Positions 32,577 to 46,719 of a DNA stretch of 64,000 nucleotides are shown one piece after another. The position numbers were made by a program, and so were the translations under genes. Location: assembly GCF_030285785.1 (NCBI RefSeq), contig NZ_CP127247.1, forward strand, positions 4,363,501-4,427,500, in the 5' to 3' direction. The notes under the pieces were generated by a model. It searched no databases and had not been told where the DNA came from. It was given only the letters and a program-made list of their open reading frames with translations. This DNA is from Parasedimentitalea psychrophila (lineage in GTDB: Bacteria; Pseudomonadota; Alphaproteobacteria; Rhodobacterales; Rhodobacteraceae). The first letter of the stretch is position 1, and the number at the start of each line of letters is the position of its first letter.

Positions 32577-33140
32577 CGGTTAGGCGACGTCTGCGACTCC
32601 CCTTAGATCTGGGAACGACAGGAGACGCCATCAGGGCACGTGCGCCGATGTAATCACTCACGTTTCCAGCGGTCAGCAACAACCGGATCGGGCGACCGAA
32701 TGCATCGGTCACGGCGTGCAGTTTTGAGTTCAAACCACCCTTTGTCAGTCCAATCAGGCGGGTTTTGCCCCCTTTTTGAGAGCCAGGCTTGATGCTGTTC
32801 GGTGCGCTTTAAGATGGGTCGCATCAATCATAAGCACGTCGGTTTTGTCACCTCGCGGGCCAACTCCATGAGAATGCGAGCGAATATCGCCTTGCGGCTC
32901 CAGCGGACCCACCTGCTGTAGAGCATCTTCGCAGGACCGTATTCCGCTGGGGCATCCCGTCACCTTAACCCATTGCGGTTAATAAATATTAGTCCGCTCA
33001 GGACACGTCTATCATCCCTCTCGGGACATTGCTATGCAATGCCCTGCCGAGCAGTGAACGCGAGGCTTCCCATGCGATTTCGGAAAGAACGGCTTAAGAC
33101 GGGACATCTGGATGGCCGTTAGCCAGAAACGATCGCTCAT
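32577..33140 (-). pseudogene. IS5-family transposase remnant (IS5-X), frameshifted
   Basis: Starting at ATG 33140 (MSDRFWLTAIQMSRLKPFFP) the frame follows an IS5-family DDE transposase through KSHGKPRV, is broken by a 40-bp palindromic insertion at 33017-33056, resumes as DDRRVLSGLIFINRNGLRWR, and shifts frame again before LMIDATHLKAHRTASSLALKKG. Loss of one G in a G run near 32775 causes a further shift into GLTKGGLNSKLHAVTDAFGRP. The 3' third is missing. Clearly dead. Confidence 0.85.
33017..33056 (-). repeat. palindromic insertion element, copy 1 (40 bp)
   Basis: Read on the minus strand: CACTGCTCGGCAG, then stem GGGCATTGC, loop ATA, stem GCAATGTCC, then CGAGAGG. Inserted in the IS5-X transposase; deleting exactly these 40 nt joins CGC GTT to GAT GAT and restores the KPRVDDRR reading. 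Confidence 0.9.
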
Positions 33141-33220
33141 ATCACTGCTCCTGTTTGATTGAAGTGGTCCTAGTTTTCAGGACAGGTTTGCGACTTTGCT
33201 AAGATGCATCAGGTTTATGT

Positions 33221-34085
33221 TCATGCCGCTTTTTGTGTCTCCGCTTGGCCGAAGTATGCGGTGTCTGGCGTGCGCTTATCAAGGGCTGTGTAAGGTCGCT
33301 CAGAGTTGTAGAATTCGATCCAGTTATCGATGATCCGTTTTGCTTGGAAACCATCGGTGAATTCATGCAGGTAGACGGCTTATTGTTTCAATGGTCGCCA
33401 GAGGCGTTCAATGAAGATTGTTATCCAAATAACGTCCGCGACCGTCCATTGATATTTTGATGGTGGCTTCGGTCAAAGTCGTGACCCAGCCAGCGCCCGT
33501 GTATTGGCAGCCTTGATCCGTATTCATTATCTCTGGCTTCCCATATTTTGCGATGGCCTCCTCCAGCGCCTCAATGTAAAAGCTGGCGTCGAGCGTATTT
33601 GAGAGCCGCCAGGACAGCACTTTGCGGGTTGCCCAATCCATGATCGCTACCAAGTACAAAAGGCCGTTTTTGACGGGTATGTAGGTACTATCACTGCACC
33701 AAACTTGATTGGGCCGCGTAATTGCAAGCTTCCTCAGCAGGTATGGATATATCCTGTTCTGTGGGTGCTTTTTGCTGGTGTTTGGGCCTTTGTACCCTCT
33801 CGTGCATGTAAACATGCACTGCCGGGCGATGGATGGCCTGTAATCCCATGGAGTTCATGAGGCGACGCACACGATGCCGCCCAGCCGAGAACCCTGACTG
33901 AGGAAGATAGGCCGCAATCTGACGGCTTCCCCTCTCGGGACATTGCTTTGCAATGCCCTGCCGGGCAATGAAAGAACGGGTATTTCGTGAACACCCTATC
34001 AATCTCATGCATCAGTTTAGGCGTCTCAAAATTCACCCCAACGGGCGTGTAATAGATCGACGAGCGGTTGATCTTGAGAAGCTTA
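33221..34085 (-). pseudogene. IS3-A transposase orfB, C-terminal portion
   Basis: From LLKINRSSIYYTPVGVNF through VFTKYPFF, interrupted by palindromic element copy 2 (33931-33970), then GSRQIAAYLPQSGFSAGRHR, the rve/DDE region (WCSDSTYIPVKNGLLYLVAI, MNTDQGCQYT) and the C-terminus YNSERPYTALDKRTPD ending at 33221. Besides the insertion, at least one more frameshift lies near 33410. The N-terminal 30 or so codons lie on the other side of IS3-B (35283-35340). Confidence 0.85.
33931..33970 (-). repeat. palindromic insertion element, copy 2 (40 bp)
   Basis: Minus strand: CATTGCCCGGCAG, stem GGGCATTGC, loop AAA, stem GCAATGTCC, CGAGAGG. Inserted in IS3-A orfB; removing exactly 40 nt joins TTC TTT to GGA AGC and restores KYPFFGSRQIA. 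Confidence 0.93.
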
Positions 34086-34124
34086 GGTAATCCCCCCATT
34101 TTTAACAGGGGGCGGTCGTAGAAT

Positions 34125-34952
34125 TTACGCGGCCATTTTCAGTTTCATTGCGGGTGTGATGCCGCCGAGGCCCATATTCGGGCGGTCATTATTGTAAGTC
34201 CATAGCCATTGTGTGGCAAAGTCCTGTGCCTCCTCTATGTTTTCGATGATATGTTGGTCCAACCATTCATGCCTGACGGTGCGATTATAGCGCTCGATGT
34301 AAGCGTTCTGCTGCGGCTTTCCGGGTTGAATGTACTGGATGATAATACCTTGTTTCTCAGCCCATTCCAGCAGCTTACCACTGATGTACTCCGGCCCATT
34401 ATCGACCCGAATGGTTCCTGGTTTCCCACGCCATTCAATGATCCGATTAAGGCTGCGAATAACCCGTTCGGCTGGCAAAGAAAAATCGACCTCGATGCCC
34501 AAACCCTCGCGGTTAAAATCATCCAGCACGTTCAAGAGCCGAAACGCCCGACCATCCCCGAGGCGATCCGCCATGAAGTCCATCGACCAGGTCATGTTCG
34601 GGGCGTCCGGCACTGCCAGCGCATCGGGTTTGTCCCGCTTTAACCGTTTCCGAGGTTTGATCCGCAAGTTCAGTTCCAGTTCGCAGTAAATCCGGTAAAC
34701 CCTTTTGTGGTTCCACGAATGACCTTGCACGTTACGTAGATGCAGGAAACATAGCCCAAACCCCCAAGTCTTCCGTGCGGCCGTCAGCCCAACCAGCAGA
34801 TCGGCAATCTCTTCGTTCTCATCGCTCAAGAGCGGGCTGTAACGATAGCACGTCTCACTGACATCAAACGTGCGGCAGGCCAGCGCAATGCTGATACCGT
34901 GGCGCGCCACCGCTTTCTCGGCCAGACCCCGTCGTAAGGCTGGCCGGATCAC
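34125..34952 (-). CDS. IS3-B transposase orfB
   Basis: 275 residues, DDE integrase-type transposase of the IS3 family. HTH_21-like N-terminal part, catalytic region with [13 protein letters not shown] (first Asp), [16 protein letters not shown] (second Asp) and [20 protein letters not shown] (Glu). Ends with [19 protein letters not shown]. Intact frame, so it may be functional. Overlaps orfA by 4 nt, the usual arrangement for frameshift or coupled expression. Confidence 0.93.
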
Positions 34953-35230
34953 TTTTTTCCCAGGGCTTCCTTCAGTAATTCTGCTTGCATGCTCATCTCG
35001 GCATACATCTTTTTCAGCCGCCGGTTCTCGTCTTCAAGCGCCTTCATTTGGCTGATCATCGACGCGTCCATACCACCGTATTTTGATCGCCATTTGTAGA
35101 ACGACGCGTTGCTCATCCCGTGCTCGCGGCACAGCTCCGTTACAGGCACACCGCCTTCGGCTTGGCGTAGGATCGCAAGAATTTGGGGTTCGCTATATCT
35201 CGTCATCTTCATCAAAATCTCCTCATGCAT
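34949..35230 (-). CDS. IS3-B transposase orfA
   Basis: 93 residues; probable start at [15 protein letters not shown] a few codons inside. HTH_8 domain ([24 protein letters not shown]) followed by a leucine-zipper-like helix ([23 protein letters not shown]), as in all IS3 OrfA proteins. Supplies DNA binding for the OrfAB fusion transposase. Confidence 0.93.
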
Positions 35231-35344
35231 TCTGCCGAGAAAATTCTACTTCCACATCCCCTTAGTTTCGGGGGGGATTACCCTTACACTGGCGCGTCAG
35301 GCTCAGGTTAGTGTTGTCTTTGCGGATCATCTCGCGGCATTCCC

Positions 35345-35380
35345 CCTCTCAGCGATGCAAGCATCGCCTGCCGGGCAGTG
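35345..35380 (-). repeat. palindromic insertion element, copy 3 (36 bp)
   Basis: Minus strand: CACTGCCCGGCAG, stem GGCGATGC, loop TT, stem GCATCGCT, GAGAGG. Shorter stem than the 40-bp copies, shortened equally on both sides. Lies between orfA and orfB of IS3-A. Confidence 0.88.
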
Positions 35381-35387
35381 GACGGGC

Positions 35388-35666
35388 TCACAGCTTCAGC
35401 CCTTGTGACAAAAAATCACTTTCCACTGCCAGTTGATTAATCTTGACATGTAACTCTTTGATCTCGCAGTCCTTATTCTCAGCTTTTTTTACCTTGTCTG
35501 AGAAGACACCTGCCATGCCTTCGATCGCCTGTCGTTTCCATGTGCTCACCTGCGTCGGGTGGAGCTGCCGCTTGGCCGCGATTTCCTGAACCGTCTTGTC
35601 ACCGCGCAGTGCCTCAAGCACCACAGCAGCCTTGTACTTGTCTGAAAAATTCCGTCGCTTCGTCAT
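35388..35666 (-). CDS. IS3-A transposase orfA
   Basis: 92 residues from MTKRRNFSDKYKAAVVLEAL, HTH_8 domain with VQEIAAKRQLHPTQVSTWKR and a coiled-coil tail (KAENKDCEIKELHVKINQLA) ending FLSQGLKL. Frame intact although its orfB partner is destroyed. An upstream in-frame ATG at 35714 reads through the terminal repeat and is not the likely start. Confidence 0.88.
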   Translation of the reverse strand: MTKRRNFSDKYKAAVVLEALRGDKTVQEIAAKRQLHPTQVSTWKRQAIEGMAGVFSDKVKKAENKDCEIKELHVKINQLAVESDFLSQGLKL

Positions 35667-35732
35667 TCTCGCATCCATTCGTTCGGGTTGGATACATCTT
35701 AGCACGCTGTCCAAATTTGCCGGACCACTTCA

Positions 35733-36147
35733 ATGCGATTGCAGCCCGAAATGCACACGCCGTGATCCCGCCGCGCAAGAACGCCAAGTTATGGAAGCCT
35801 GACACGCCCGGGACCAAGGCACGAGCCAAAGCGGTCCGATCCTCAAAGTATCTGGGCCGTGCATTGTGGCAGCAACTGACTGGATACCACCGCCGTAGCC
35901 GCGTCGAGACGAAACCTCTCGGGACATCGCGTTGCGATGCCCTGCCGGTCAGTGGATGCATTGTATGAAACTTTTAGGTCAGCGCCTCTCCGCAAGAGAC
36001 TTCGAGCGGCAGGTTGCTGAGATCCAAATCCGCGCTGCGATCCTCAATGGCTTCACGGCGCTTGGCATACCCAAGACCGAGGCTGTAGGGTAAATCCGTT
36101 CGGGGCAAGGGGAAGCCTGACCTCAAGCCGATTTGTGCAACAAAGCC
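35733..36147 (+). pseudogene. IS5-family (IS1031-like) transposase 3' fragment (IS5-Y)
   Basis: On the plus strand the C-terminal part of a second IS5-type transposase is readable: RNAHAVIPPRKNAKLW, KAVRSSKYLGRALWQQLTGY, HRRSRVETK, then palindromic element copy 4, then MHCMKLLGQRLSARDFERQV to a stop at 36091-36093. The right terminal repeat GATTTGTGCAACAAAGCC (36130-36147) is preserved. The 5' part is lost at the edge of IS3-A. Confidence 0.85.
35915..35954 (-). repeat. palindromic insertion element, copy 4 (40 bp)
   Basis: Minus strand: CACTGACCGGCAG, stem GGGCATCGC, loop AAC, stem GCGATGTCC, CGAGAGG. Interrupts IS5-Y between VETK and MHCMKLL; 41 nt must be removed to restore the frame by my count. 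The host gene is on the plus strand here, so the element is inverted relative to its gene but keeps the same genomic orientation as the other copies. Confidence 0.9.
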
Positions 36148-36178
36148 CAGTGCTCGCGACAAAAATGGATGTATATTT

Positions 36179-36973
36179 CTACCCCAGATAAGCGCGAAGG
36201 CCTTCTATATCTGCGAGATCTGGCATCATGTGAATCATTCGGTTGCAATTTGTGCAAAGGACTGCCAAATCCGAAATCTCCAGACGACGCGTCTTAAAAT
36301 TCTCTGCGTATGGCACCTTATGATGAACTTCAAAAATGGCGCCACGAAACTTGTCCTCGTGAGAAATCCCACAGCATTCACATTTATACCCGTACTGCTT
36401 AAGGGCCATTTTTCGAGCCTTTGAGGTGCGCTCAACCCCTACTGACCATTTCCTACGCTTCTTTTCGCAGTCGATGCTGCTTTCAAGTCCTTGAGCCAAC
36501 TTTTCAAACCAAACAACCCAAGGACTATCTGCATCCCCATAGAGAACTGGGAACATGCCTGGAGGTCTGGGCTGCAATTCATCGTTTCTTTTGTCAACCG
36601 GGATCAAAAATGCATCCTTTGGGTCGACCTTAACCCGGCAGGATATCTTATCCTTGCCAGCCTTAAGGCGATCTGGGTGCCGAACTGGAGAAGCAAAAAC
36701 TGTCGCATTCCTGTAGTATCCGCACAAAACACCACCACTGATAAAAAGCACGGTTACGTTCGAGACTTTGTCAGCGTCGCGATCCCCGCCCAACCGACTT
36801 AAGTCGCCTCCTCCGTTCTTTGGAAGGTAGCCATAGATAAAGCCATCGGATGCGAGTGAAAAATTGGAAATCTCACTAGGAACTTTACCGCTCTTTCCAT
36901 ACCCCATAACAGGGTCGGCAGACAGGTTTTCGCCCTCAAATCGGGCGAAATTTTCCACACGCGCCAGTAGATA
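36179..36973 (-). pseudogene. HNH endonuclease, 5' end removed by IS3-C
   Basis: About 264 native codons (from YLLARVENFARFEGENL) end with a C-terminal HNH nuclease domain: CECCGISHEDKF zinc-binding cysteines, IFEVHHKVPYAE with the HH pair, and LAVLCTNCNRMIH. The frame continues 17 codons into the terminal repeat of IS3-C (to an ATG at 37024), so the original start and N-terminus are gone. AT-rich by eye. Such stand-alone HNH proteins are often defence or restriction nucleases (inference); whether a hybrid product is made is unknown. Confidence 0.8.
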
Positions 36974-37036
36974 TGGACCTGTCACGGTATTGTTCCGCCC
37001 CTTTGAGAGCATATTCTGCCCCAAAGGAGATACACC

Positions 37037-37312
37037 ATGGCACCACGACCATCCGAAGAATTCAAACGCGACGCAGTGCGGATCGCACTGACCAGCGGGC
37101 TGACCCGCCGACAGGCGTCCTCCGATCTTGGGGTTGGTATGTCCACCCTGTGCAAGTGGATCAGAACCTATCGTGACGCGGACGTTGTTTCGAAAGAGGA
37201 TCAGGAACTGGCCAATGAGAACGAGCGCCTTCGCCGGGAAAACCGCCTTCTACGTGAGGAGAGGGAGCTGCTAAAAAAAGCAACAATCTTCTTTGCGGAC
37301 CAAAGCAAATGA
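37037..37312 (+). CDS. IS3-C transposase orfA
   Basis: 91 residues. HTH_8 domain (EEFKRDAVRIALTSGLTRRQ, then LGVGMSTLCKWIRTYRD) and a leucine-rich helix (ELANENERLRRENRLLREER). AAGGAG lies upstream of the ATG. Its stop overlaps the orfB start (ATGA). Confidence 0.93.
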   Translation: MAPRPSEEFKRDAVRIALTSGLTRRQASSDLGVGMSTLCKWIRTYRDADVVSKEDQELANENERLRRENRLLREERELLKKATIFFADQSK

Positions 37313-38166
37313 GGTTTTCATTTGTTGAAAAGCACCGCAATAGCATTCCCACAGAGCGACTTTGCCGGATTGTGGATGTCACCCCACGTGGCTACCGAGC
37401 CTGGCGCAAACGCCCTGCCTGCCAGCGTCAACGTGGGGATATGGTTCTGTTGGCCCACATCCGGGAGCAGCACCGCCTGAGTTTGCAGAGCTACGGCCGA
37501 CCGAGAATGGTCGAAGAACTGAAAGAGCTTGGTCTGGATATTGGTCACCGCCGTGTCGGCCGATTGATGCGCCAGAACGGCATATCTGTTGTCAGAACCC
37601 GTAAGTACAAGGCCACAACGGACAGCAATCACAAGTTCAACATCACGCCAAACCTGCTGAACCGGAACTTCTCAGCAGATCGACCCAATCAAAAATGGGT
37701 TGTTGATATCAGCTACATCTGGACCCGCGAGGGCTGGCTCTATCTGGCCGTGGTTCTGGACCTGTACTCCAGGCGCGTGGTCGGTTGGGCTGTCAGCAAC
37801 CGGATGAAGCGCGATCTGGCCATACGGGCGCTGAACATGGCCATAACCCTGCGCAGGCCGCCCAAAGGATGCATCCATCATTCTGATAGGGGCAGCCAAT
37901 ATTGCTCGCAGGATTACCAGAAAATCCTGCGCCGGTATGGCTTCAAGGTATCCATGAGCGGCAAGGGTAATTGCTATGATAACGCCGCAATGGAAACCTT
38001 CTTCAAAACCATCAAAGCGGAATTGATCTGGCGGCACTCTTGGCAAACCCGCAGGGCTGCTGAGATCGCCATCTTCGAGTACATTAATGGGTTCTATAAT
38101 CCCCGCCGGAGACACTCGGCATTAGGCTGGAAAAGTCCCTTGGCTTTTGAAAAGATCGCCGCCTAA
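37309..38166 (+). CDS. IS3-C transposase orfB
   Basis: 285 residues, DDE transposase with KWVVDISYIWTREGWLYLAV (first Asp), CIHHSDRGSQYCS (second Asp) and GNCYDNAAMETFFKTIKAE (Glu). The C-terminal YNPRRRHSALGWKSPLAFE is family-typical. Intact and probably active. Confidence 0.95.
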   Translation: MRFSFVEKHRNSIPTERLCRIVDVTPRGYRAWRKRPACQRQRGDMVLLAHIREQHRLSLQSYGRPRMVEELKELGLDIGHRRVGRLMRQNGISVVRTRKYKATTDSNHKFNITPNLLNRNFSADRPNQKWVVDISYIWTREGWLYLAVVLDLYSRRVVGWAVSNRMKRDLAIRALNMAITLRRPPKGCIHHSDRGSQYCSQDYQKILRRYGFKVSMSGKGNCYDNAAMETFFKTIKAELIWRHSWQTRRAAEIAIFEYINGFYNPRRRHSALGWKSPLAFEKIAA

Positions 38167-38204
38167 ATGAGCACAAGGGGCGGAACGAAAGCGGGACAGG
38201 TCCA

Positions 38205-38249
38205 CTTATCAAATAACGCTATTTGGACCCATAGGCGCTGACGTCAGAC
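38205..38249. repeat. right-end fragment of an IS3-D copy
   Basis: A 45-bp stretch beginning CTTATCAAATAACGC and ending GACGTCAGAC is identical to the right terminus of IS3-D at about 46760-46804, in the same orientation. It is all that remains of a second IS3-D copy, cut by IS3-C. Confidence 0.9.
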
Positions 38250-38374
38250 AGGTTGGCGTTGGTGGGGCCAGTATAGCAGCGTTTGAAGAATTCGCCGGCG
38301 GACTTGCGGTTGCACTTCCGGACGATGCGCAGGCCATATTTGACTGGGTGCAAGACGCCATATCCGAACGCTAG
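38250..38374 (+). pseudogene. 3' fragment of an unidentified gene
   Basis: After the IS3-D end an open frame reads VGVGGASIAAFEEFAGGLAV through IFDWVQDAISER to a TAG at 38372-38374 and is followed by a strong terminator, so it looks like the tail of a real gene whose front was lost to IS activity. Not identified. Confidence 0.55.
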
Positions 38375-38386
38375 ACCCAAATGATA

Positions 38387-38416
38387 AGGCGCTTTGAAAT
38401 CTCTTTCAAAGCGCCT
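38387..38416. terminator. strong terminator between gene fragment and alkB
   Basis: AGGCGCTTTGAAA-TCTC-TTTCAAAGCGCCT is a perfect 13-bp stem with a 4-nt loop. It serves the convergent alkB operon (stop at 38436) and the plus-strand fragment. Confidence 0.85.
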
Positions 38417-38435
38417 GACCTAGATCTGTTGCCGG

Positions 38436-39587
38436 TTACCCTGCGCCCTTTGGCTTAGGCAGGGTTCCCATTTTGTAAGGTTCCCAATCTGTGATTTCGG
38501 GGTAGAATTGCTTGCGCCAGGCCCGGACACGTGGGTTAAACACCCGGCGCCACAGCGGCGGGATCATCGCCAGTGCAGTCATCGGCGGATAGCCCGTCGG
38601 CAACAGCGGCACTTCGCTCTCATCATAGACCTGCAACAGCGGAAAGCGCCGCATCGGATGGGCGTGATGATCAGCGTGACGTTGCAGATTGATCAGCAGC
38701 AGCCCCGAGACCCGATGAGCGGAATCCCATGAGTGATGCGGCCGCACCGGCTCGTATTTGCCGTCGCCCAGATGTTTGCGAGTCAGCCCATAGTGCTCGA
38801 CATAGTTGGTCAATTCCAACTGCCAGATGGCAACAAAGGCCTGAAACACAAACAGGCCCACACCGATCCAGCCGCCAATGGCAAAGGCGATGGCAAGGAA
38901 GACAACCTGCAGTCCCAGATATTTCCAGATCGGATTGCCCGGATGCCACGGCGACCTATTGAGCCGGGCCTGCATCGCTTTTTCCGCCCGCCAGGCCGAA
39001 CCAAAACCCGTCCACAATGTGCGTGCAAAGGCGCGGTGGAATCCCTCGTTATAGCGCGCTGTCACCGTATCGCGCGAGGTGCCAACATGGGGGTGATGCA
39101 CCAACAGATGCTCGGTGCGAAAATGGCCATAGAGTACCAGGGCCATCAGCAGATCGCCCAAGCCCCGCTCGATCCGGTTGGGTTTGTGAAACAGCTCATG
39201 TGCGTAGACAATGCCGACGGTTCCGGTTGTGACACCGATGCCGAACATGATGCCAAGGGTTTCCAATGTCGAATACTGACCAACTCGGGTCAAATAATAG
39301 AGCGACCCAAACACCAGAGTGATTTGAATCGGGAACCAGATGCAGGTGAGCAAGCGAAACCAGAAAAGCTCGGCCTCAGGGGTGTCAGGATCGGGATTAC
39401 GCAGGTCTTTGCCCATGATAATGTCCAGCAATGGCATCAGCACCCAGCCGTAGAAAGGGATCAACAATATCGTCCACCCTCCCTGTAAAACTGCCAGAAC
39501 CACTAAGGGTACAAATGTCAGTGTCATCCAGTAGGGCCAAGGGTTTAGTCGATTTTTGTCGGTTGGGGATTCAGTCGCCCATGTCAT
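38436..39587 (-). CDS. alkB: alkane 1-monooxygenase (AlkB-type)
   Basis: 383 residues. Integral-membrane non-heme diiron hydroxylase converting n-alkanes to 1-alkanols. About six membrane segments and the histidine boxes HELFH (130-134), EHLLVHHPH (from 159) and LQRHADHH (301-308), plus the AlkB-typical NYVEHYG (261-267). The second box has LLVHH where many AlkB have NRGHH, worth noting. Rubredoxin is not encoded nearby. AAGGAGAA within the last codons of the P450 gene serves as its ribosome binding site, so the two are one operon. Confidence 0.93.
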   Translation of the reverse strand: MTWATESPTDKNRLNPWPYWMTLTFVPLVVLAVLQGGWTILLIPFYGWVLMPLLDIIMGKDLRNPDPDTPEAELFWFRLLTCIWFPIQITLVFGSLYYLTRVGQYSTLETLGIMFGIGVTTGTVGIVYAHELFHKPNRIERGLGDLLMALVLYGHFRTEHLLVHHPHVGTSRDTVTARYNEGFHRAFARTLWTGFGSAWRAEKAMQARLNRSPWHPGNPIWKYLGLQVVFLAIAFAIGGWIGVGLFVFQAFVAIWQLELTNYVEHYGLTRKHLGDGKYEPVRPHHSWDSAHRVSGLLLINLQRHADHHAHPMRRFPLLQVYDESEVPLLPTGYPPMTALAMIPPLWRRVFNPRVRAWRKQFYPEITDWEPYKMGTLPKPKGAG

Positions 39588-39589
39588 AT

Positions 39590-41017
39590 TCAGTTCTCCT
39601 TATTGCTATCATCAGAGCGCGGGGTGAGGCGCAGGCGAATACCATTGGCCGAGCGCACCGTCAGATGCGCGACGGGCATCGGGTCATCACCTTTGACAAC
39701 CTCAAATCGATAGGCCCGTACCAGCATCGACAACAGCAACACTCCTTCGGCCATGGCAAAGGCAGAGCCTGGACACACCCTGGCGCCAGCAGAAAATGGG
39801 ATGTAGGCCGAGCGCAGGCACTCCTTGCCGTTGGGCGTATCAAAGCGACCTGGATCAAACTCATCAGGTCTGTCCCACAGGCGCTCGTGGCGATGCAGGT
39901 GCCATGGGCTGATGATGACCTGTGAGCCAGGCTTGACCTTGCGGCCTCGGAACTGTTCCGGGCAGGTGGCCTCGCGGACATACATGGGCACCGGCGGATA
40001 AAGCCGCATCGCCTCGCGAAACACAGAGCGGGAATGGCGCAGTTTAGACAGGGCCGAGAAATAGATTTTCTCAGGGTCAATTTCCGCCAAAGCTTCCTCG
40101 GCCAATTTGTCTTGCCAAACGGGGTAACGGGCCAGCAGATACAGCGCCCAGGCCAATGCCGCCGCCGAGGTTTCATGACCGGCCAGAAAGAAAATGGCGA
40201 CCTGATCAATCATTTCCTCGGTTTCAAATACCGTGCCGGTTTCCGGGTCCGGCGTGGTCATGATCTTGGTGGCCAGATCATCCGGCGCGGTGCCGTCTGC
40301 GATGGCAGCAGCGCGTTGTTGCGTCAACTGCCCGATCAAACCACGAATTGTGCGGGCCGTTTCCTTGGTTTTGCGCGAATGAAACCGCGGAAACCATTTT
40401 GGCAACGGCAAAACAGCCGCGATATTGGCAATCGGATGCGCCGCCTGATGTTCACGAAAGGTCTCAAACGCCGCATTGGCAATTTCATGGTCGATTGGGA
40501 CCGAAAACAAGGTGCGGAAAATCACATCCATCGCCAGATGGCTGGTCTGGGCCTCGATCTCGACAGGAGAGCCATCCGCCATCGGTTTCAGGCGTTCGAC
40601 TGCCGCATTGCCACAGTCCCACATCGACGGGAACACGGTTCGCAATCGCCCGCCCTCAAACGCCGGGTCAATGATGCGACGTTGACGGGCCCATGTTTCA
40701 CCGTTCGAGATAAAGACGGACTCGCCCAAAAGCGGTTTCAATCCGACCCGGATCCGCTCAGACTTGGGAAAGTCTTTTGGGCGTTTTTTCAAAACCAGAT
40801 CAACAAGATCGGGATCATTGCACAGGTATGACCTGAAAAATGGAGTGCGCATCTCGGCCATCCAAGCGCGGTACAAATGTGCGGGCTGGGCCGACAGAAT
40901 GTCCTTTTTGAACAGCCGGAAATAAGTCCATAGCGAAACTCTACCCTGCCGGGCAACAGGTTTAGGCGGCACATCCATTGGCGGCACAGGTTTCTCGTCT
41001 AGCAATTCGGGCCCCAC
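39590..41017 (-). CDS. cytochrome P450, long-chain-substrate type
   Basis: 475 residues, longer than the P450 at 1643 and closer to the eukaryote-like/CYP102-heme-domain type. I-helix FFLAGHETSAAALAWALYLL, ExxR in FREAMRLYPPVPMYVREA, heme loop PFSAGARVCPGSAFAMAEG. The start is a GTG at 41017 with a weak ribosome binding site; ATG 14 codons downstream is an alternative. It is upstream of alkB with 2 nt between them. Together they suggest terminal or subterminal oxidation of alkanes or fatty acids. Confidence 0.92.
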   Translation of the reverse strand: MGPELLDEKPVPPMDVPPKPVARQGRVSLWTYFRLFKKDILSAQPAHLYRAWMAEMRTPFFRSYLCNDPDLVDLVLKKRPKDFPKSERIRVGLKPLLGESVFISNGETWARQRRIIDPAFEGGRLRTVFPSMWDCGNAAVERLKPMADGSPVEIEAQTSHLAMDVIFRTLFSVPIDHEIANAAFETFREHQAAHPIANIAAVLPLPKWFPRFHSRKTKETARTIRGLIGQLTQQRAAAIADGTAPDDLATKIMTTPDPETGTVFETEEMIDQVAIFFLAGHETSAAALAWALYLLARYPVWQDKLAEEALAEIDPEKIYFSALSKLRHSRSVFREAMRLYPPVPMYVREATCPEQFRGRKVKPGSQVIISPWHLHRHERLWDRPDEFDPGRFDTPNGKECLRSAYIPFSAGARVCPGSAFAMAEGVLLLSMLVRAYRFEVVKGDDPMPVAHLTVRSANGIRLRLTPRSDDSNKEN

Positions 41018-41074
41018 AACAGTGATAATTGGTCAGAGTTGCACGATTTCTCCTTTGTCATCTTTGGTTTGTAA

Positions 41075-41088
41075 TTGACGATCATCAA
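41075..41088. promoter_or_regulatory. FNR-like operator between P450 and Crp/Fnr gene
   Basis: TTGACGATCATCAA fits the FNR/Anr consensus TTGAT-N4-ATCAA with one mismatch. It lies 58 nt before the P450 start and 126 nt before the regulator start, a natural place for control of the divergent genes by the regulator encoded next door. Confidence 0.65.
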
Positions 41089-41213
41089 TTTTTGCTACGA
41101 TAGATCCTTTACTGCGGATTCAAGGCCAAAACAGCAGGCGTTATTGTCCAATATCAAACACGTCGCAGGAAAAAGCGTCTATTCAGGCTCATGTTACCTC
41201 AACGAGGAACGAG

Positions 41214-41924
41214 ATGTCGGACCCATCAAACCCAATACACCCTTGCGGGGCCTGCGATTTTTATAACGACAGCGTCTGGCAACCCGTTGCCTCCTGCTCA
41301 GTTTCCGTCCTGTCCCGTGGCTATTCGCGCAAGGATCTAAGCAAAGGGCAATCCCTCTACTATCAGGAGGATGAAAACCGGGGGGTGTTCTGTTTGTCCA
41401 AAGGTTTGGTCGCGCTTCGCACATATCACCAAAATGGTTCGTCAACCTTGCTCCGGCTGGCCTATCCCGGCGACATCATCGGCTTTCGGTCTTTTCTCGA
41501 AAACCGCCCACACCGAACTGAAGCGCGTGCACTCTTGGCCTCTCGCGTGTGCACCGTTGCGAGGCGTGATGCACAGCAGGTGGTGCAAGGAAATCCGTCA
41601 ATCCTGGCACGGCTGGCCTCGCGCTGCATTTCGGAAATCGATCGCAACCACGACCGGATCATCGCCGCCGCGACAACATCCAGCAAACAAAGGCTGATCG
41701 ACATTTTGTTGCGGTTGATGAAGGCGCATGGTGAACAATCCGTAGAGTGCCTGCACATGCAATTGCCACTGTCACGCTCTGACTTGGCCGACCTGATTGG
41801 GGTGCAAACTGAAACCGTGTCACGCCTGTTCAAACGCATTCAGGCCGACGGAGTTTTTCACGTCTCTGGGCGTGAAATTCAGATGCTTGTTGACCCTTCT
41901 CCCCGGCGATCTGGCAGTGGGTGA
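41214..41924 (+). CDS. Crp/Fnr-family transcriptional regulator
   Basis: 236 residues. N-terminal extension with cysteines (PCGACDFYN, later VASCS), a cyclic-nucleotide-binding-like beta-roll (LSKGQSLYYQEDENRGVFCL to YPGDIIGF), a dimerisation helix and a C-terminal winged helix with LSRSDLADLIGVQTETVSRLFKRIQ, the recognition pattern (E-T-V-S-R) of FNR-type proteins that bind TTGA half sites. The N-terminal cysteines could hold an Fe-S cluster as in FNR (inference). GAGGAACGAG precedes the ATG. Divergent from the P450-alkB operon, its likely target. Confidence 0.9.
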   Translation: MSDPSNPIHPCGACDFYNDSVWQPVASCSVSVLSRGYSRKDLSKGQSLYYQEDENRGVFCLSKGLVALRTYHQNGSSTLLRLAYPGDIIGFRSFLENRPHRTEARALLASRVCTVARRDAQQVVQGNPSILARLASRCISEIDRNHDRIIAAATTSSKQRLIDILLRLMKAHGEQSVECLHMQLPLSRSDLADLIGVQTETVSRLFKRIQADGVFHVSGREIQMLVDPSPRRSGSG

Positions 41925-42178
41925 CCCTTGTTTTCTGCCGTGTCCAACGATTTGCGGTTTAGTAGGATGGATATAGCCTCCAACCACTCTGACGAATGCA
42001 GCCTTTAGCGATCGCCGAACGCGGCAATCTGGAGCCCCAACGCAACCGGGCCGCGCACAAGCGTATGCTGGACGCACAGATGCTTGGGTTGCTGGTGTCG
42101 CGTGCGGCGGCGGAAGGCGTCGAGGCAGAGGGGTTCGAGGTGTTCAAGGTGTTCACAACAACCTACGCCGGATTGATC
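41925..42178. other. short region between regulator gene and IS66 end
   Basis: No convincing gene. An open plus-strand frame from 41996 (Ala/Glu-rich, reading AAAEGVEAEGFEVFKVF) runs into the IS66 terminus, so it may be a truncated relic, but I do not recognise it. Confidence 0.35.
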
Positions 42179-42193
42179 GTAAGCGTCCGTTGC

Positions 42194-43640
42194 CTACGTC
42201 TTTGGACTATAATTCCACGGCATCAACTCGTCTAGCCTGTTGATTTTGTGGTCAGCGATACGTTCCAGAACCCATGTGAGCCATGCCTGTGGATCGACCT
42301 TGTTCAGCTTGGCGGTTTCAATCAGGGTGAAGGCGATAGCCATAGAATTACCACCGCGTTGTGAACCAGAAAACATCCAGTTTTTACGTCCGATGGCGAT
42401 GGGCTTCATGGCGCGTTCAGCAGTATTATTATCCAGTTCCAGAAAACCATTGTCGAGGTAAGGCCGTGTTTTGGGCATGCGGTTCAAGGCGTATCGAATG
42501 GCTTTGGCCAGTGGCGATTTGCCTGATATTTTAGGCAACTGGGCGTGCAGCCAATCTTCCAGATCATCGAAGATAGGTTTTGCATTTTCTTGACGTAGAG
42601 CATCACGGGCCTCGGGGGATAGGCCCCGCGCCTGCTTTTCCACGCCATACAATCGTGCAATCCGCTTGATGGCTTCTTCGGCGATGGCAGAACCTTGCGC
42701 GGTAAACACATCCACAAATTTGCGCCTGATATGGGCCATGCAGGCCACTTCCGAGACTTTGCCTTCACCAAACACACCATTGAACCCAGCATAACCATCC
42801 GCATGCACCCAGCCTTGATAACCGGATAAACATTTGACTGGGTGCTCGCCTTTACGGTCGACTGTAAACTGATACCAGACGCAGGGCGGAGATTGGTCGG
42901 ACCATGGCCTCTCGTCTCTGACATAGGCCCAGATGCGGGCGGTTTTGGTCTTTTTGTTGCCTGGAGCGAGCATTTTAAGCGGCGCATCATCCGCAAACAG
43001 GGATGTGCCATCCTTGACCCGTTTTGCGATGGCATCAGCCAATGGTTCCAGCAGGGCTGTGGATTTCCCCACCCAATCCGCCATTGTCGAACGGTCCAGA
43101 TCGACACCTTCGCGGGCATAGATTTGTGACTGGCGGTAAAGCGGTAAGTGATCTGCATACTTGCTGACCAAAACGTGCGCCAACAAACCTGGCCCGGGTC
43201 TGCCACGTTCGATCGGACGCGAGGGCATAGCGGCCCGGAATGTATTCCAGTTCTTCTGTTATGTCTTCGCCCAGTTTTGAAACGTCACCACCACATTCAG
43301 GGCAATCCTCACCAACAGACAAAACCTGTTCAATACGTTCAAGGTGTTCTGGCAACGGCTTGCGTTTGGGCTTTGCCTTTGGCTCAACGGGGGCAGCGAG
43401 CGCGGTTTGTTCAACCTCGGTAGCCGCTTTTGCGATCTCTTCATTCTCGGCGAACAATTGCAGTTGATCCATGCCCTCGGATTTTGACCCAAAACGATGC
43501 CGGTTAGCTCCGTGCTACTGGTGCTGAAGTTGCTCAACCTTCAGGGTCAACGCCTTTACTTCGGCCGCCAAAAGCTCTCTCACCTGCCGTAGTTCGGCGG
43601 GGTCTTCAGGCAAGTTGTCAAGGGCGTTCAGCATGGCCAT
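42194..43640 (-). pseudogene. IS66 transposase tnpC, broken
   Basis: Begins MAMLNALDNLPEDPAELRQV at 43640, hits an in-frame TAG after KVEQLQHQ, continues HGANRHRFGSKSEG, MDQLQLFAEN and the zinc-finger-like CPECGGDVSKLG to EYIPGR. It then loses about 60-70 bp (the segment normally joining EYIPGR to LPSRPIERG is absent) with a frame change. From 43228 the DDE domain is readable ([33 protein letters not shown]) to the stop at 42194. Confidence 0.88.
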
Positions 43641-43706
43641 TCTATACAGAAACGCGCCCGAAATGGGAATCCATATTCGCCCGTATTACTTGATAATTGC
43701 ACTTGA

Positions 43707-44050
43707 TTATCCCGCCTGCAAAGGTCGCCATGTCCGCTTTGGAATGCGCCAGTCGATGCCTACCAGCAGCATCGCCAGTTGCGCCGAGGTCAGGCTGATC
43801 TTGCCGTCTTTTGCCACAGGCCAAACAAACCGGCCATGTTCAAGTCGCTTGGAAAACAGGCGCCTTGGCTGTCCCACCATATGATCTTGAGCAGATCGCC
43901 ACGCCGTCCCCGAAACACAAACAGATGACCGGAGAACGGATCCTCCGTCAGAACCTGTTCGGCCTTTGCTGCCAGCGTATTGAATCCACGCCGCATGTCC
44001 GTTACGCCAGCTGCAATCCAGACCCGCGTATTGCTCGGCACCGGGATCAT
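43707..44050 (-). pseudogene. IS66 accessory protein tnpB, frameshifted
   Basis: [20 protein letters not shown] to [11 protein letters not shown] follows TnpB; then a small deletion (about 4 nt) shifts the frame, and [20 protein letters not shown] to MLLVGIDWRIPKRTWRPLQ is read in another frame up to 43707. Confidence 0.85.
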
Positions 44051-44145
44051 GATGACAATCCCTTCAGCAAGCGCGCCAGCATATCAACAACAAAACTGCC
44101 CTCGGCCGATACGTGGCTCCTCCCGTCGGCAACCGTCATTGTGCT
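44047..44145 (-). pseudogene. IS66 tnpA, C-terminal fragment
   Basis: The minus strand reads [20 protein letters not shown] ending ARLLKGLSS with a stop overlapping the tnpB start (ATGA). Only this tail remains. Confidence 0.75.
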
Positions 44146-44314
44146 AGAAAGCGACGACCGACAGAAGATATCCGCGCCTTACCTGGCTCTACTCGACGAT
44201 GGCGTATGGTATTTGATCAATGTTGGTTTCGGAGGGCTAATGGGATCCGTCAAGGGCCTGTACTCGTCGTTCGACGAGATTGAGTTCGATTTCCCCACGC
44301 GGGAGCAGCAGTGA
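44146..44314 (+). pseudogene. 3' fragment of an unidentified gene next to IS66
   Basis: Reads LESDDRQKISAPYLALLDDG and VWYLINVGFGGLMGSVKGLY to SSFDEIEFDFPTREQQ and a stop at 44314. Protein-like composition and abrupt start at the IS66 edge suggest a host gene truncated by that insertion. Not identified. Confidence 0.5.
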
Positions 44315-44667
44315 AGCGGCCCGGTATCGCCTTCTACTTATCTCGGTTTCTACTTTTCAATTGTGACGGCACTTTCTGACCACACGACGCGCCCTAAAAC
44401 CTCTACAGGTTCTCGCTGGGACATTGGGATCAAAACTGAATCCGAATTGGCGGCGTAAAGCCCTTTCAAATAAGGCAAATATGGGGTTGGTATCTAGGTG
44501 AACGCGCGGAATTGGCGGCAAATCAAGGCTGCGAACTTGAACGAGCCGATTCAAGTTCGCTCCTCTCTTTCAAGAAAGGGCATACACCTTACTTTTCAAT
44601 AACATAGATGATTTGCGTGACAGAAAATTGGCGCTGGGACTTGAGAGTGATTTCCGGGGTTTTAGTG
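44315..44667. other. intergenic region, nothing recognised
   Basis: 350 bp, AT-rich in the second half; no gene, hairpin or repeat stands out. Confidence 0.4.
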
Positions 44668-45215
44668 TCAGAATATGCTTATGACAGCCCGGATGCGGCC
44701 AGCGATGCGTATGGTAAGTAATTCTTCATTTGAAACAACCTGAACTGGATAGGAGCGGTTGTCTGCCACAATCGCAATGGTGCGCGGTCGCCCTTCCTCA
44801 TCGAAATCAGACGGGATCAAACGCTTGATGAATGCTTCCCCGTTGCGGCTAAAGGCATATATGCCTTCATGCAGCGCATACATCTCTGGTGCATGAACTA
44901 ATGCCAGCGACCCATCGGGAATTGTAGGCACCATGCTGTCGCCTTCAACCCGAACCAAACCGCACAGGTCAGAGTTCAACTGTTGCTGCCCTAGCCATGA
45001 GTTGGAAAATGCAATGTTGTCATTATCTTCTCCCTCTATTGCGATCAGACCCTTACCCGTAGAAACGCCGATTTCAAACCGGTAGATCATCGTGAACTCC
45101 TGGTCATTAAACCTCAGATCGCCACGGCCAGATTGTTGGTAATCTGGTGGCGCAACCTGTTCGCCCCTTCGACCAGTAAAGCCCGCGCTTTCCGTGTCCA
45201 TATCGCCGTTCCCGG
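44668..45215 (-). pseudogene. S24-family phage-type repressor, N-terminus removed by IS3-D
   Basis: The C-terminal LexA/CI-like peptidase domain is complete: catalytic serine in VEGDSMVPTIPDG and catalytic lysine in EAFIKRLIPSDF. The DNA-binding N-terminus is missing: native sequence starts at the IS3-D end (45216), and the open frame reaches only to an ATG at 45243 inside the IS. The domain is clearly homologous to the intact repressor at 61645 (shared SWL, SDLCGLV/ADLCVLV, GDSM.PTI, EA.IKRL). Confidence 0.85.
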
Positions 45216-45289
45216 TGTCCGTCGTCAGGGTTTTTGGAACCAATGGCGGGTTAAACTACTAGAGAGTTCGGCTCATCTGGTTGGCTTCA

Positions 45290-46310
45290 TTATGCGGCGC
45301 GTTGTCTGTGATGCAAGCGCCGCGTTTCGAGCGTCTTACGTTTGATCCTTTCCCTTTGTTGTAGAATGGCTTTGTCGCGTCCGAAGTAGACGTCGGCGGG
45401 TGTGACGTTGTTCAGGCTCTCGTGGTAGCGGTGATGATTGTAGTGATCGACGAAGGCTTCGATCTGGGCTTCGAGATCACCGGGCAGGAAGTAGTGCTCT
45501 AACAAGATGCGGTTCTTCAAGGTTTGATGCCACCGCTCGATCTTACCTTGGGTTTGCGGGTGATACGGCGCGCCACGGCTGTGCTTCATGCCCTTGTCTT
45601 GCAGCCATTCCGCCAGTTCCCCTGAGACGTAGCTGGAACCGTTATCACTCAGCAGGCGTGGCTTGTGGACGACATGAACTTGGTCACATCCCGATGCTTC
45701 CAAAGCCAAGTCCAACGTATCAGTGACGTCTTGTGTTCTCATGTTCGTGCAAAGCTTCCATGAGATGATGTACCGGCTGTAATCGTCCAAGATCGTGCTG
45801 AGATAAAACCAACCCCAGCCGATGATCTTCAGATATGTGAAGTCCGTCTGCCACAACTGGTTGATGGCTGTGGTTTTGTCTTTGAACTCGCTCGCCGCCT
45901 TTATAACGATGAAGGCGGGGCTGGTGATCAGATCGTGCGCCTTCAAGATCCGATACGTCGAAGCCTCTGATACGAAATAGCTTTCTCGATCCGTGAACGT
46001 CACTGCCAGTTCACGTGGCGACAACTCGGTCTCGTTCAGCGCCAACTTCACGACCTTGCGCCGTATCGCGTCCGGAATACGGTTCCAGACGAGTTTGGGC
46101 TTCGGCGATTGATCCTGCAGTCCAGCTTCGCCGCGCTGCAAATACCTATCATACCAACGATAGAAAGTGGTGCGTGGGATGCCCAACTTGGCCAATGTCA
46201 GGCGGGCCGACAGATGCGATCCCTCAACCAGCCTGATGATCTCTAACTTCTCAGATGCCCCCTTTCGGCAGATTGCTACGCAATCGCCTGCCGGGTGACA
46301 GGTATCTCAT
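45290..46310 (-). pseudogene. IS3-D transposase orfB, interrupted near its start
   Basis: ATG 46308-46310 overlaps the orfA stop (ATGA). The first codons (MRYR) are cut by palindromic element copy 5; without it the frame reads ASEKLEIIRLVEGSHLSARL into AKLGIPRTTFYRWYDRYLQR and the DDE domain (WQTDFTYLKIIGWGWFYLST, PRLLSDNGSSYVSGELAEWL, HPQTQGKIERWHQTLKNR), ending HHRQRAA at 45290. About 300 codons from ATG 46195 remain open, so a shortened protein could still be made. Confidence 0.88.
46261..46300 (-). repeat. palindromic insertion element, copy 5 (40 bp)
   Basis: Minus strand: TGTCACCCGGCAG, stem GGCGATTGC, loop GTA, stem GCAATC-T-GCC with a one-nt bulge, then GAAAGG. Inserted after the fourth codon of IS3-D orfB; deleting exactly 40 nt gives ATG AGA TAC CGG GCA TCT and the reading MRYRASEKLE. 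The most divergent copy. Confidence 0.88.
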
Positions 46311-46719
46311 TCGCGGCCGTCCCCACCGTCGAACATGCTTTTTTTAAGCAAACGGAGTTCGAGCGTTTGTTCCGCCACAACTTCCTTCAGATCACGCGCT
46401 TCACGGCGCAGATCCTTCACTTCGTCGGTGTTTGCAGCGCGTGCAGTATCGCCAGCCAGCCGCTTCTTGCCAGCTTCCATGAAGTCTTTCGACCATTTGT
46501 AGTAGATGCCTTGGGAAATGCCCTCACGACGGCACAGCTCAGCAATGCTGTCTTCGCCACGAAGGCCATCCAGGACGATCCTGATCTTCTCTTCGGATGA
46601 GTAATGCTTGCGCCCCTCTCACACATGCTGCGCATGTGCTGCCGGGCAGGGGTGGCCCGCTTGATATCTTTGACGATCTTCTCGCCAGGGCTTTTGCCTG
46701 TTCCAGTTGTATGTCTCAT
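46307..46719 (-). pseudogene. IS3-D transposase orfA, interrupted
   Basis: Starts MRHTTGTGKSPGEKIVKDIK at 46719; palindromic element copy 6 follows RAT, after which the correct frame continues RKHYSSEEKIRIVLDGLRGE, the HTH region (ELCRREGISQGIYYKWSKDF) and a coiled-coil tail ending MFDGGDGRE at 46307. Removal of 38 nt restores one frame. Confidence 0.85.
46614..46650 (-). repeat. palindromic insertion element, copy 6 (37-38 bp)
   Basis: Minus strand: CCCTGCCCGGCAG, stem CACATGC, loop GCA, stem GCATGTG, TGAGAGG. The stem sequence differs from all other copies yet pairs perfectly. In orfA of IS3-D. Confidence 0.88.

Follow-up and report, generated by a model that had tools for sequence, protein, structure and literature searches.

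Results

The stretch of DNA analysed here, called the window throughout, spans 64,000 nt (positions 4,363,501–4,427,500) of a 4.84 Mb contig of Parasedimentitalea psychrophila, whose genome comprises 5.0 Mb in four contigs. It holds seven copies of a hairpin-bearing unit of about 40 nt. All are plus-strand and lie inside or at the edge of reading frames of insertion sequences (IS). The copies, together with a unit-free gene between them that serves for comparison, are as follows.

33017–33056, plus strand: unit 1, long type (40 nt counted from CCTCTC), inside a minus-strand IS5/IS427-type transposase gene
33796–33831, plus strand: unit 2, short type (36 nt), inside a minus-strand IS3 orfB
33931–33970, plus strand: unit 3, long type, in the same IS3 orfB as unit 2
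34128–35033, minus strand: unit-free IS3 orfB (IS3 family model, 213 bits; cut-off 160)
35345–35380, plus strand: unit 4, short type, about 10 nt beyond the end of a minus-strand IS3 orfA frame
35915–35954, plus strand: unit 5, long type, inside a plus-strand IS5 transposase gene
46261–46300, plus strand: unit 6, a long-type copy with variant ends, at the N-terminal end of a minus-strand IS3/IS481-like orfB
46615–46651, plus strand: unit 7, short type, at the start of a minus-strand IS3 orfA

The original prediction listed six copies, all said to lie inside IS genes. All six were found, and the one at 33796–33831 had been overlooked; the copy placed at 46614 exists and starts at 46615 when counted from CCTCTC. 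The location inside IS genes holds for units 1 and 5 (IS5-type) and for units 2 and 3 (IS3 orfB), while units 6 and 7 sit at gene starts and unit 4 lies just outside its frame. The assignments rest on protein matches. At unit 1, tblastn matches from the left and right flanks meet at transposase residues 28–29. The open reading frame (ORF) spanning unit 2 (33411–33854) matches IS3 transposase and rve, the one spanning unit 3 (33694–34011) matches HTH_21 and, below the cut-off at 31.7 bits, IS3 transposase, and HTH_Tnp_1 is matched by the ORFs beside unit 4 (35391–35729) and adjoining unit 7 (46310–46618). A unit-free homologous copy (81%) of the unit 5 host is present in the genome. Rfam gave no match in the window.

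Structure and abundance of the units

Read on the plus strand, a unit consists of CCTCTC, a variable hairpin and TGCCGGGCARTG, the hairpin being followed by the conserved TGCCGGGCA and then usually RTG. The other strand reads CAYTGCCCGGCAG, hairpin, GAGAGGG. The stem has 8–9 bp and the loop 2–3 nt. In long units 3 bp, one unpaired base (the bulge of this type) and 6 bp surround a 3-nt loop; in short units about 8 bp surround a 2-nt loop. Variant units with the left end GGATACTC instead of the usual CCCCTCTC occur at three loci (L042 near position 2947, L046 near 3102 on the minus strand, and L240 near 69).

The predicted plan of a palindrome, a hairpin with a 2–3 nt loop and a GAGAGG end is borne out genome-wide by pattern counts, since CCTCTCN{18,32}TGCCGGGCA has 97 exact matches in the 5.0 Mb genome versus 1 when the pattern is reversed. 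On its own, the 11-mer palindrome is no commoner in the window than chance would give: it has 40 matches when up to 2 mismatches are allowed, shuffled sequences average 32.2, and 14 of 100 shuffles reach 40. The whole plan, in contrast, is above chance. A covariance model gave at least 141 matches at E≤1 (best 150 of 5908 candidates scored). A strict script, which leaves out 25 of the pattern or model matches, recognised 167 units in 90 site clusters in the loci fetched from the genome, and 0 in the reversed sequence. Units occur in both orientations, with no obvious pattern of orientation along the chromosome, and stand alone or several to a gene. One gene (3731711–3732512) carries six, and a gene with five is found at two places with unrelated flanks, its copies differing by 16 substitutions.

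The pairing of the hairpin arms is conserved despite sequence change. In rows picked by hand from the match listings and the window, hence not a random sample, standard pairs fill 93.1% of the pair cells of 45 distinct long units, versus 72.0% when shuffled and 31.6–44.4% when slid, and 8 of 9 pairs change on both sides. Similarly, 40 short units are 89.1% paired, versus 66.6% shuffled and 20.0–46.3% slid, with 7 of 8 pairs changing on both sides. Folding of single-stranded DNA recovers the hairpin; for the plus strand it predicts a small TGC/GCA hairpin as well.

Filled and empty sites

The units are clean insertions without target duplication and not native IS sequence, because related IS copies, within the genome and between species, lack just the unit. 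At one site of an IS5/IS427-type element (site A), four filled copies have 40 nt between GTCC and GATC, four other loci have the sequence GTCCGATC, and filled and empty copies are 98.8–100% identical over 400 bp. The IS3 at 3024086 forms filled/empty pairs at 94.5–95.8% with an insert of 41 nt, and an IS3-type element at 4107340 forms a pair at 80–81% with an insert of 37 nt. For the IS3 at window position 46261, an empty copy elsewhere in the genome is 98% identical over 400 bp, with 42 nt replacing 2. Among IS30 elements, six units at 2199462 and related loci can be set against two unit-free copies (2831137 and 2819593) at 94%.

Comparison between species gives the same picture. The IS30 of Sulfitobacter pontiacus BL28 and S1704 is filled and the version in Sulfitobacter SK025 is empty, at 98.7% over 598 bases; the empty version is open for 469 residues. 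The insert in S1704 is exactly C plus 40 nt between CCC and AATGG, and BL28 has one extra C. The IS5 position occupied at window 33017 is also filled in plasmid pDSHI04 of Dinoroseobacter shibae and is empty in Paracoccus pantotrophus (87% over 416). When plasmids were searched with an IS30 locus of P. psychrophila, none matched.

No target duplication was seen in the filled/empty pairs inspected, within the genome or between species. The insert, which for three transposases had been taken as exactly 40 nt, is indeed about that length, but is usually C plus the unit, that is 41 nt for the long type or 37 nt for the short type, and sites vary by 1–2 nt. The claim that the units are insertions was thus upheld; related IS copies are not always filled.

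Two cases look as if recombination had occurred. An IS30 copy in the 3687398 region (L073) is close to the others until just past the unit and then diverges, which suggests an exchange beside the unit. The loci at 850976 and 3394055 share a left flank and have different units and right flanks, as if two unit-bearing IS had recombined at the unit.

Target preference

Over 83 clusters (the 90 after removal of seven doubtful ones), the right flank begins with G in 76%, A in 70%, T or C in 88% and G in 64%, and C precedes the unit in 86%, with one C usually part of the insert. The insertion site is Y^GAYG or, on the other strand, the position just 3′ of CRTC. The preference is not absolute. Empty sites show GAYG/CRTC to be native flanking sequence.

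Among 335 collected units (from this genome, named species and sampled genomes, with IS copies and some loose matches included), 236 have some flank match to a small set of transposases. Where both flanks match, the protein coordinates of the two sides are often no more than one codon apart. The same codon is hit in diverged transposases. For instance, units lie just before the D of LLI^DSTGIK in IS5, a residue which we take to be catalytic, in eight rows (six other loci and two copies in this genome); further recurrent sites are IS3 residue 272 (three rows) and IS5 residue 64 (five rows, two of them copies of one IS in this genome). At the recurrent IS5 site, with positions crudely mapped, unit-bearing genes are interspersed among genes that diverge by 21–51% in protein from their nearest relatives. 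Some of this sharing may be inherited, as stems at one site are often of one type.

The host insertion sequences

The small transposase set consists of 19 proteins, partly taken from unit-bearing loci. It matches at 76 of 135 units from named species and at 46 of the 90 site clusters of P. psychrophila, versus 2 of 140 control points at distances above 1.5 kb (odds ratio 89 for named versus control, p=2e-27). The 135 units come from 80 of at least 120 named stretches and include some that are loosely matched. Of 20 loci drawn from 18 other genomes, 12 are IS, two of these by matches below the curated cut-off. Eight were at first not IS or unresolved (L118, L119, L120, L122, L127, L128, L130 and L132), and L127, L128 and L130 later matched IS.

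Units that the small set left unmatched were compared with Pfam and NCBIfam, which gave IS256, IS66, ISNCY, IS3, IS91, IS110 and a transposase-like helix-turn-helix; no family was found there for the ORFs at L180, L186, L229 and L234 (one ORF each or two) or at L218. L219 has a weak IS110 match only, and at L194 a histidine kinase lies about 110 nt away. Overall the host families are IS3, IS5, IS21, IS30, IS66, IS91, IS110, IS256, IS1182 and ISNCY, where transposases with a DUF772 domain are presumed to be IS1182.

Three host loci may be mentioned separately. Units lie inside IS91-type Y2 transposase genes at L237 (943 and 1387) and L241 (6790). In D. shibae pDSHI04 (NC_009958.1, 1–5829; L111), the unit is part of a 2.2 kb region for which no gene is listed; this region matches IS5 transposases of other plasmids, marking it as an unannotated IS remnant.

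Taxonomic distribution

Clear hairpin-bearing matches are almost exclusive to Rhodobacteraceae. The eight genomes of the genus have 89, 0, 0, 6, 1, 28, 10 and 55 matches. In the family, at least one raw match occurs in 75 of 149 genomes and at least five in 15, many of the single matches being chance hits without a hairpin. In the class, 17 of 289 genomes match, with hairpins clear by eye in three genomes of the same family and in one each of families f80 and f116. Named species contributed at least 120 stretches; the 80 listed are all titled Rhodobacteraceae, Rhodobacterales, genera that belong to these groups, or uncultured alphaproteobacteria. Plasmids gave 92 records, and the genera among the matches listed all belong to the Roseobacter group or its relatives. 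One unit searched against 50,697 phages had no match; among viral contigs, 6 stretches match one exact pattern.

Discussion

We consider the units to be a family of very small, non-autonomous mobile elements that resemble repetitive extragenic palindromes (REPs), are moved in trans and live as hyperparasites in IS, a reading to which we give a probability of about 0.5. The working form would be a folded single strand. An enzyme acting from elsewhere, either of the HUH type or some other single-strand recombinase, would recognise the hairpin and its conserved flank and join the unit to the 3′ side of CRTC, in the manner of REP and IS200/IS605 systems. The units could then persist and travel in IS because IS are dispensable, present in many copies and themselves mobile. 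No Y1/RAYT protein that could be this enzyme is detectable in the genome.

Several points weigh against this. No transposition was observed, and the searches found no autonomous copy and no linked enzyme gene; in particular, no version of the unit split by a gene occurs in 1,738,912 bases of loci, overlapping loci included. The excess in IS may partly come from selection against other insertions together with the spread of unit-bearing IS. The energies of single-strand folding are modest (z of −1.3 to −1.8), the conserved TGCCGGGCA palindrome could equally be a binding site on double-stranded DNA, and template switching could also keep the arms matched.

A bolder version holds that insertion itself is aimed at IS. 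A recombinase coupled to IS DNA, for instance to strands exposed while an IS moves, would drop 40-nt hairpins into the transposase genes of about ten unrelated IS families. The units would thereby act as a brake on IS that spreads by itself, and would rank among the smallest mobile DNA units known. We regard this as possible but unlikely.

Alternatively, the units may be a REP subfamily moved in the ordinary way by a Y1 transposase (TnpA-REP, or RAYT) that was lost here or is too divergent to detect. REPs mobilised by RAYT were named as the closest analogue in the original prediction, and the analogy holds for size, hairpin and bulge. The passages of PMC8266576 on which we draw describe REPs as palindromes of 20–50 nt, some of them bulged, present in many copies, non-autonomous and presumed to be single-strand substrates, whose dissemination mechanism is given as unresolved; in REP and IS200/IS605 hairpins they mention the bulge and a guide tetranucleotide. 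The bulged and perfect types of our units resemble two REP groups of that paper, as far as those passages go. The RAYT partner is where the analogy fails. Y1_Tnp (PF01797) has no match at E≤0.001 in this genome, the richest in units (best E=0.667). In the family it is found in 15 of 149 genomes, namely 4 of 15 rich in units (at least 5 raw matches) versus 11 of 134 others (p=0.047), so that Y1 tracks copy number only weakly. In the genus it exceeds the cut-off in four of the eight genomes, those with 0, 28, 10 and 55 matches, and not in the one with 89. A unit lies near 1 of the 20 Y1 loci searched. The search for a co-distributed Y1/RAYT gene, which had been proposed, therefore did not bear out the expectation. 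The units also differ from the GTAG REPs of TnpA-REP/RAYT systems, which they resemble in size, copy number and bulged or perfect palindromes: they have no GTAG-type tag, the four bases before the hairpin being GCAG on the CAYTGCCCGGCAG strand and TCTC on the other; they add the CTGCCCGGCAG palindrome; and they lie mostly in IS (IS genes contain or adjoin at least 76 of the 135 sampled units and 46 of this genome's 90 clusters) and are not mainly extragenic as GTAG REPs are. An ordinary REP/RAYT system is accordingly a doubtful explanation.

Movement in trans by IS91-type Y2 rolling-circle transposases would supply an enzyme of the HUH kind. HUH enzymes insert without target duplication, which fits the filled and empty sites. 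Within the genus, Y2_Tnp is present in the three unit-richest of the eight genomes, in one as fragments, and absent in the other five; in the family it occurs in 7 of 15 genomes with at least 5 raw matches versus 11 of 134 others (p=0.0004). Y2 thus tracks copy number better than Y1, but richness in units and Y2 may both follow IS load, a confounder. Several unit-rich genomes have no Y2 (e.g. G013, G064, G108), six Y2 genomes have no unit match (G047, G056, G071, G094, G105, G125), and the borders of the IS91 copies in this genome, compared by eye, bear no clear likeness to the unit. We think it distinctly unlikely that Y2 transposases are the movers. Three IS91-type copies in this genome (2247332, 2827196 and 2835575; L157–L159) carry before the Y2 transposase a 331-residue gene which, named by its look, is tyrosine-recombinase-like.

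Host replication could also copy the units by template switching at hairpins, with no dedicated recombinase. The arms stay complementary while changing, as hairpin-templated conversion would give, and a few sites have 1–2 nt lost or added. Nevertheless, the clean ends, the fixed plan and the target preference at 83 site clusters point to an enzyme, and this route seems very unlikely.

Interrupted genes might still be expressed through translational bypass or removal of the unit from RNA, after the fashion of the byp elements of yeast mitochondria. One IS5-type element has eight close copies, and the unit is present in every one. In 13 transposase genes, some with five or six units, the aligned segments have no stops, but six frameshifts fall in three of these genes; the unit marks in this analysis include false units, and only the counts of stops and frameshifts were used. 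Selection counts, which shift with the cutting of the IS borders and are given little weight, differ between groups. Four unit-bearing IS30 copies show 20 non-synonymous and 31 synonymous changes, fewer amino-acid changes than under neutrality, and one IS3 pair shows 1 to 6 (p=0.001); against this, the pair of five-unit genes shows 10 to 5 (p=0.30), compatible with neutrality, and two IS5 groups have nonsense changes, stops or only non-synonymous changes. One in-frame case was found. An IS3 of S. pontiacus (NZ_CP081119.1), annotated as intact, has a unit in frame near the start of orfB (L135, 35650–36778); a second copy lies at 42905–44033, both copies share one protein accession, and IS3 relatives in S. 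dubius and SK025 are without the 42 nt there. On the other side, in-frame stops are not rarer beside units (82 in 22,302 residues, 3.7 per 1000) than in unit-free IS (8 in 4,446, 1.8 per 1000), and for 73 of 90 inserts the length is not divisible by 3, so that the frame shifts. Two IS30 copies have single-base insertions or deletions, other IS30 copies are free of units, and one appears to be a recombinant. These mixed results do not, taken together, speak for bypass, a reading that we consider highly improbable. We conclude that most units lie in dead or trans-mobilised IS, with exceptions possible.

That the segment is an ancestral part of the IS, as its recurrence at the same positions across genera might suggest, is refuted by the filled/empty pairs within the genome (at up to 100% identity) and between species, by empty forms that encode an uninterrupted conserved protein such as the IS30 of SK025, and by the presence of the same unit in unrelated IS families.

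Our REP-like elements appear to stand outside the repeat families to which they are closest, as these are defined. Besides the GTAG REPs, the portions of PMC3733652 on which we draw describe CGTC-tagged REPs, alphaproteobacterial palindromes of similar size with no known transposase that occur mainly as head-to-head dimers. In those portions the CGTC tag lies inside the repeat, the loop has 4–5 nt and there is a CCA tail, whereas our units have CRTC in the target flank, a loop of 2–3 nt and no CCA tail. IS200/IS605 elements and their non-autonomous derivatives are alike in inserting 3′ of a short target without duplication and in the extrahelical base of their hairpins (in part after the same passages of PMC8266576). 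They have two subterminal hairpins with guide sequences, at separate ends bordering a gene, unlike the single compact unit of about 40 nt, and no TnpA was found here. Rickettsia palindromic elements (RPE) are small palindromic insertions inside genes, in frame; our units are shorter, mostly frame-breaking and in transposase genes. Miniature inverted-repeat transposable elements (MITEs) have terminal inverted repeats and a target duplication, whereas the ends of the units, CCTCTC and RTG, are not inverted repeats, and duplication is lacking. Membership in the GTAG REPs, CGTC REPs, RPE and MITEs was rejected on these defining features. By analogy, the units may nevertheless work like REPs. The proposed check for a match to a described repeat family found no description of the unit family among the papers listed by searches of the open-licence literature of PubMed Central.

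Our study suggests that the units are candidates for some of the smallest mobile DNA elements, carried by other mobile elements. They provide clean pairs of sites before and after insertion, at single-base resolution, for a single hairpin of REP size, and the missing mobiliser is a concrete target to find. In roseobacters, the units in many IS families form a natural tag for IS turnover, and they may explain some of the transposase genes left blank by annotation.

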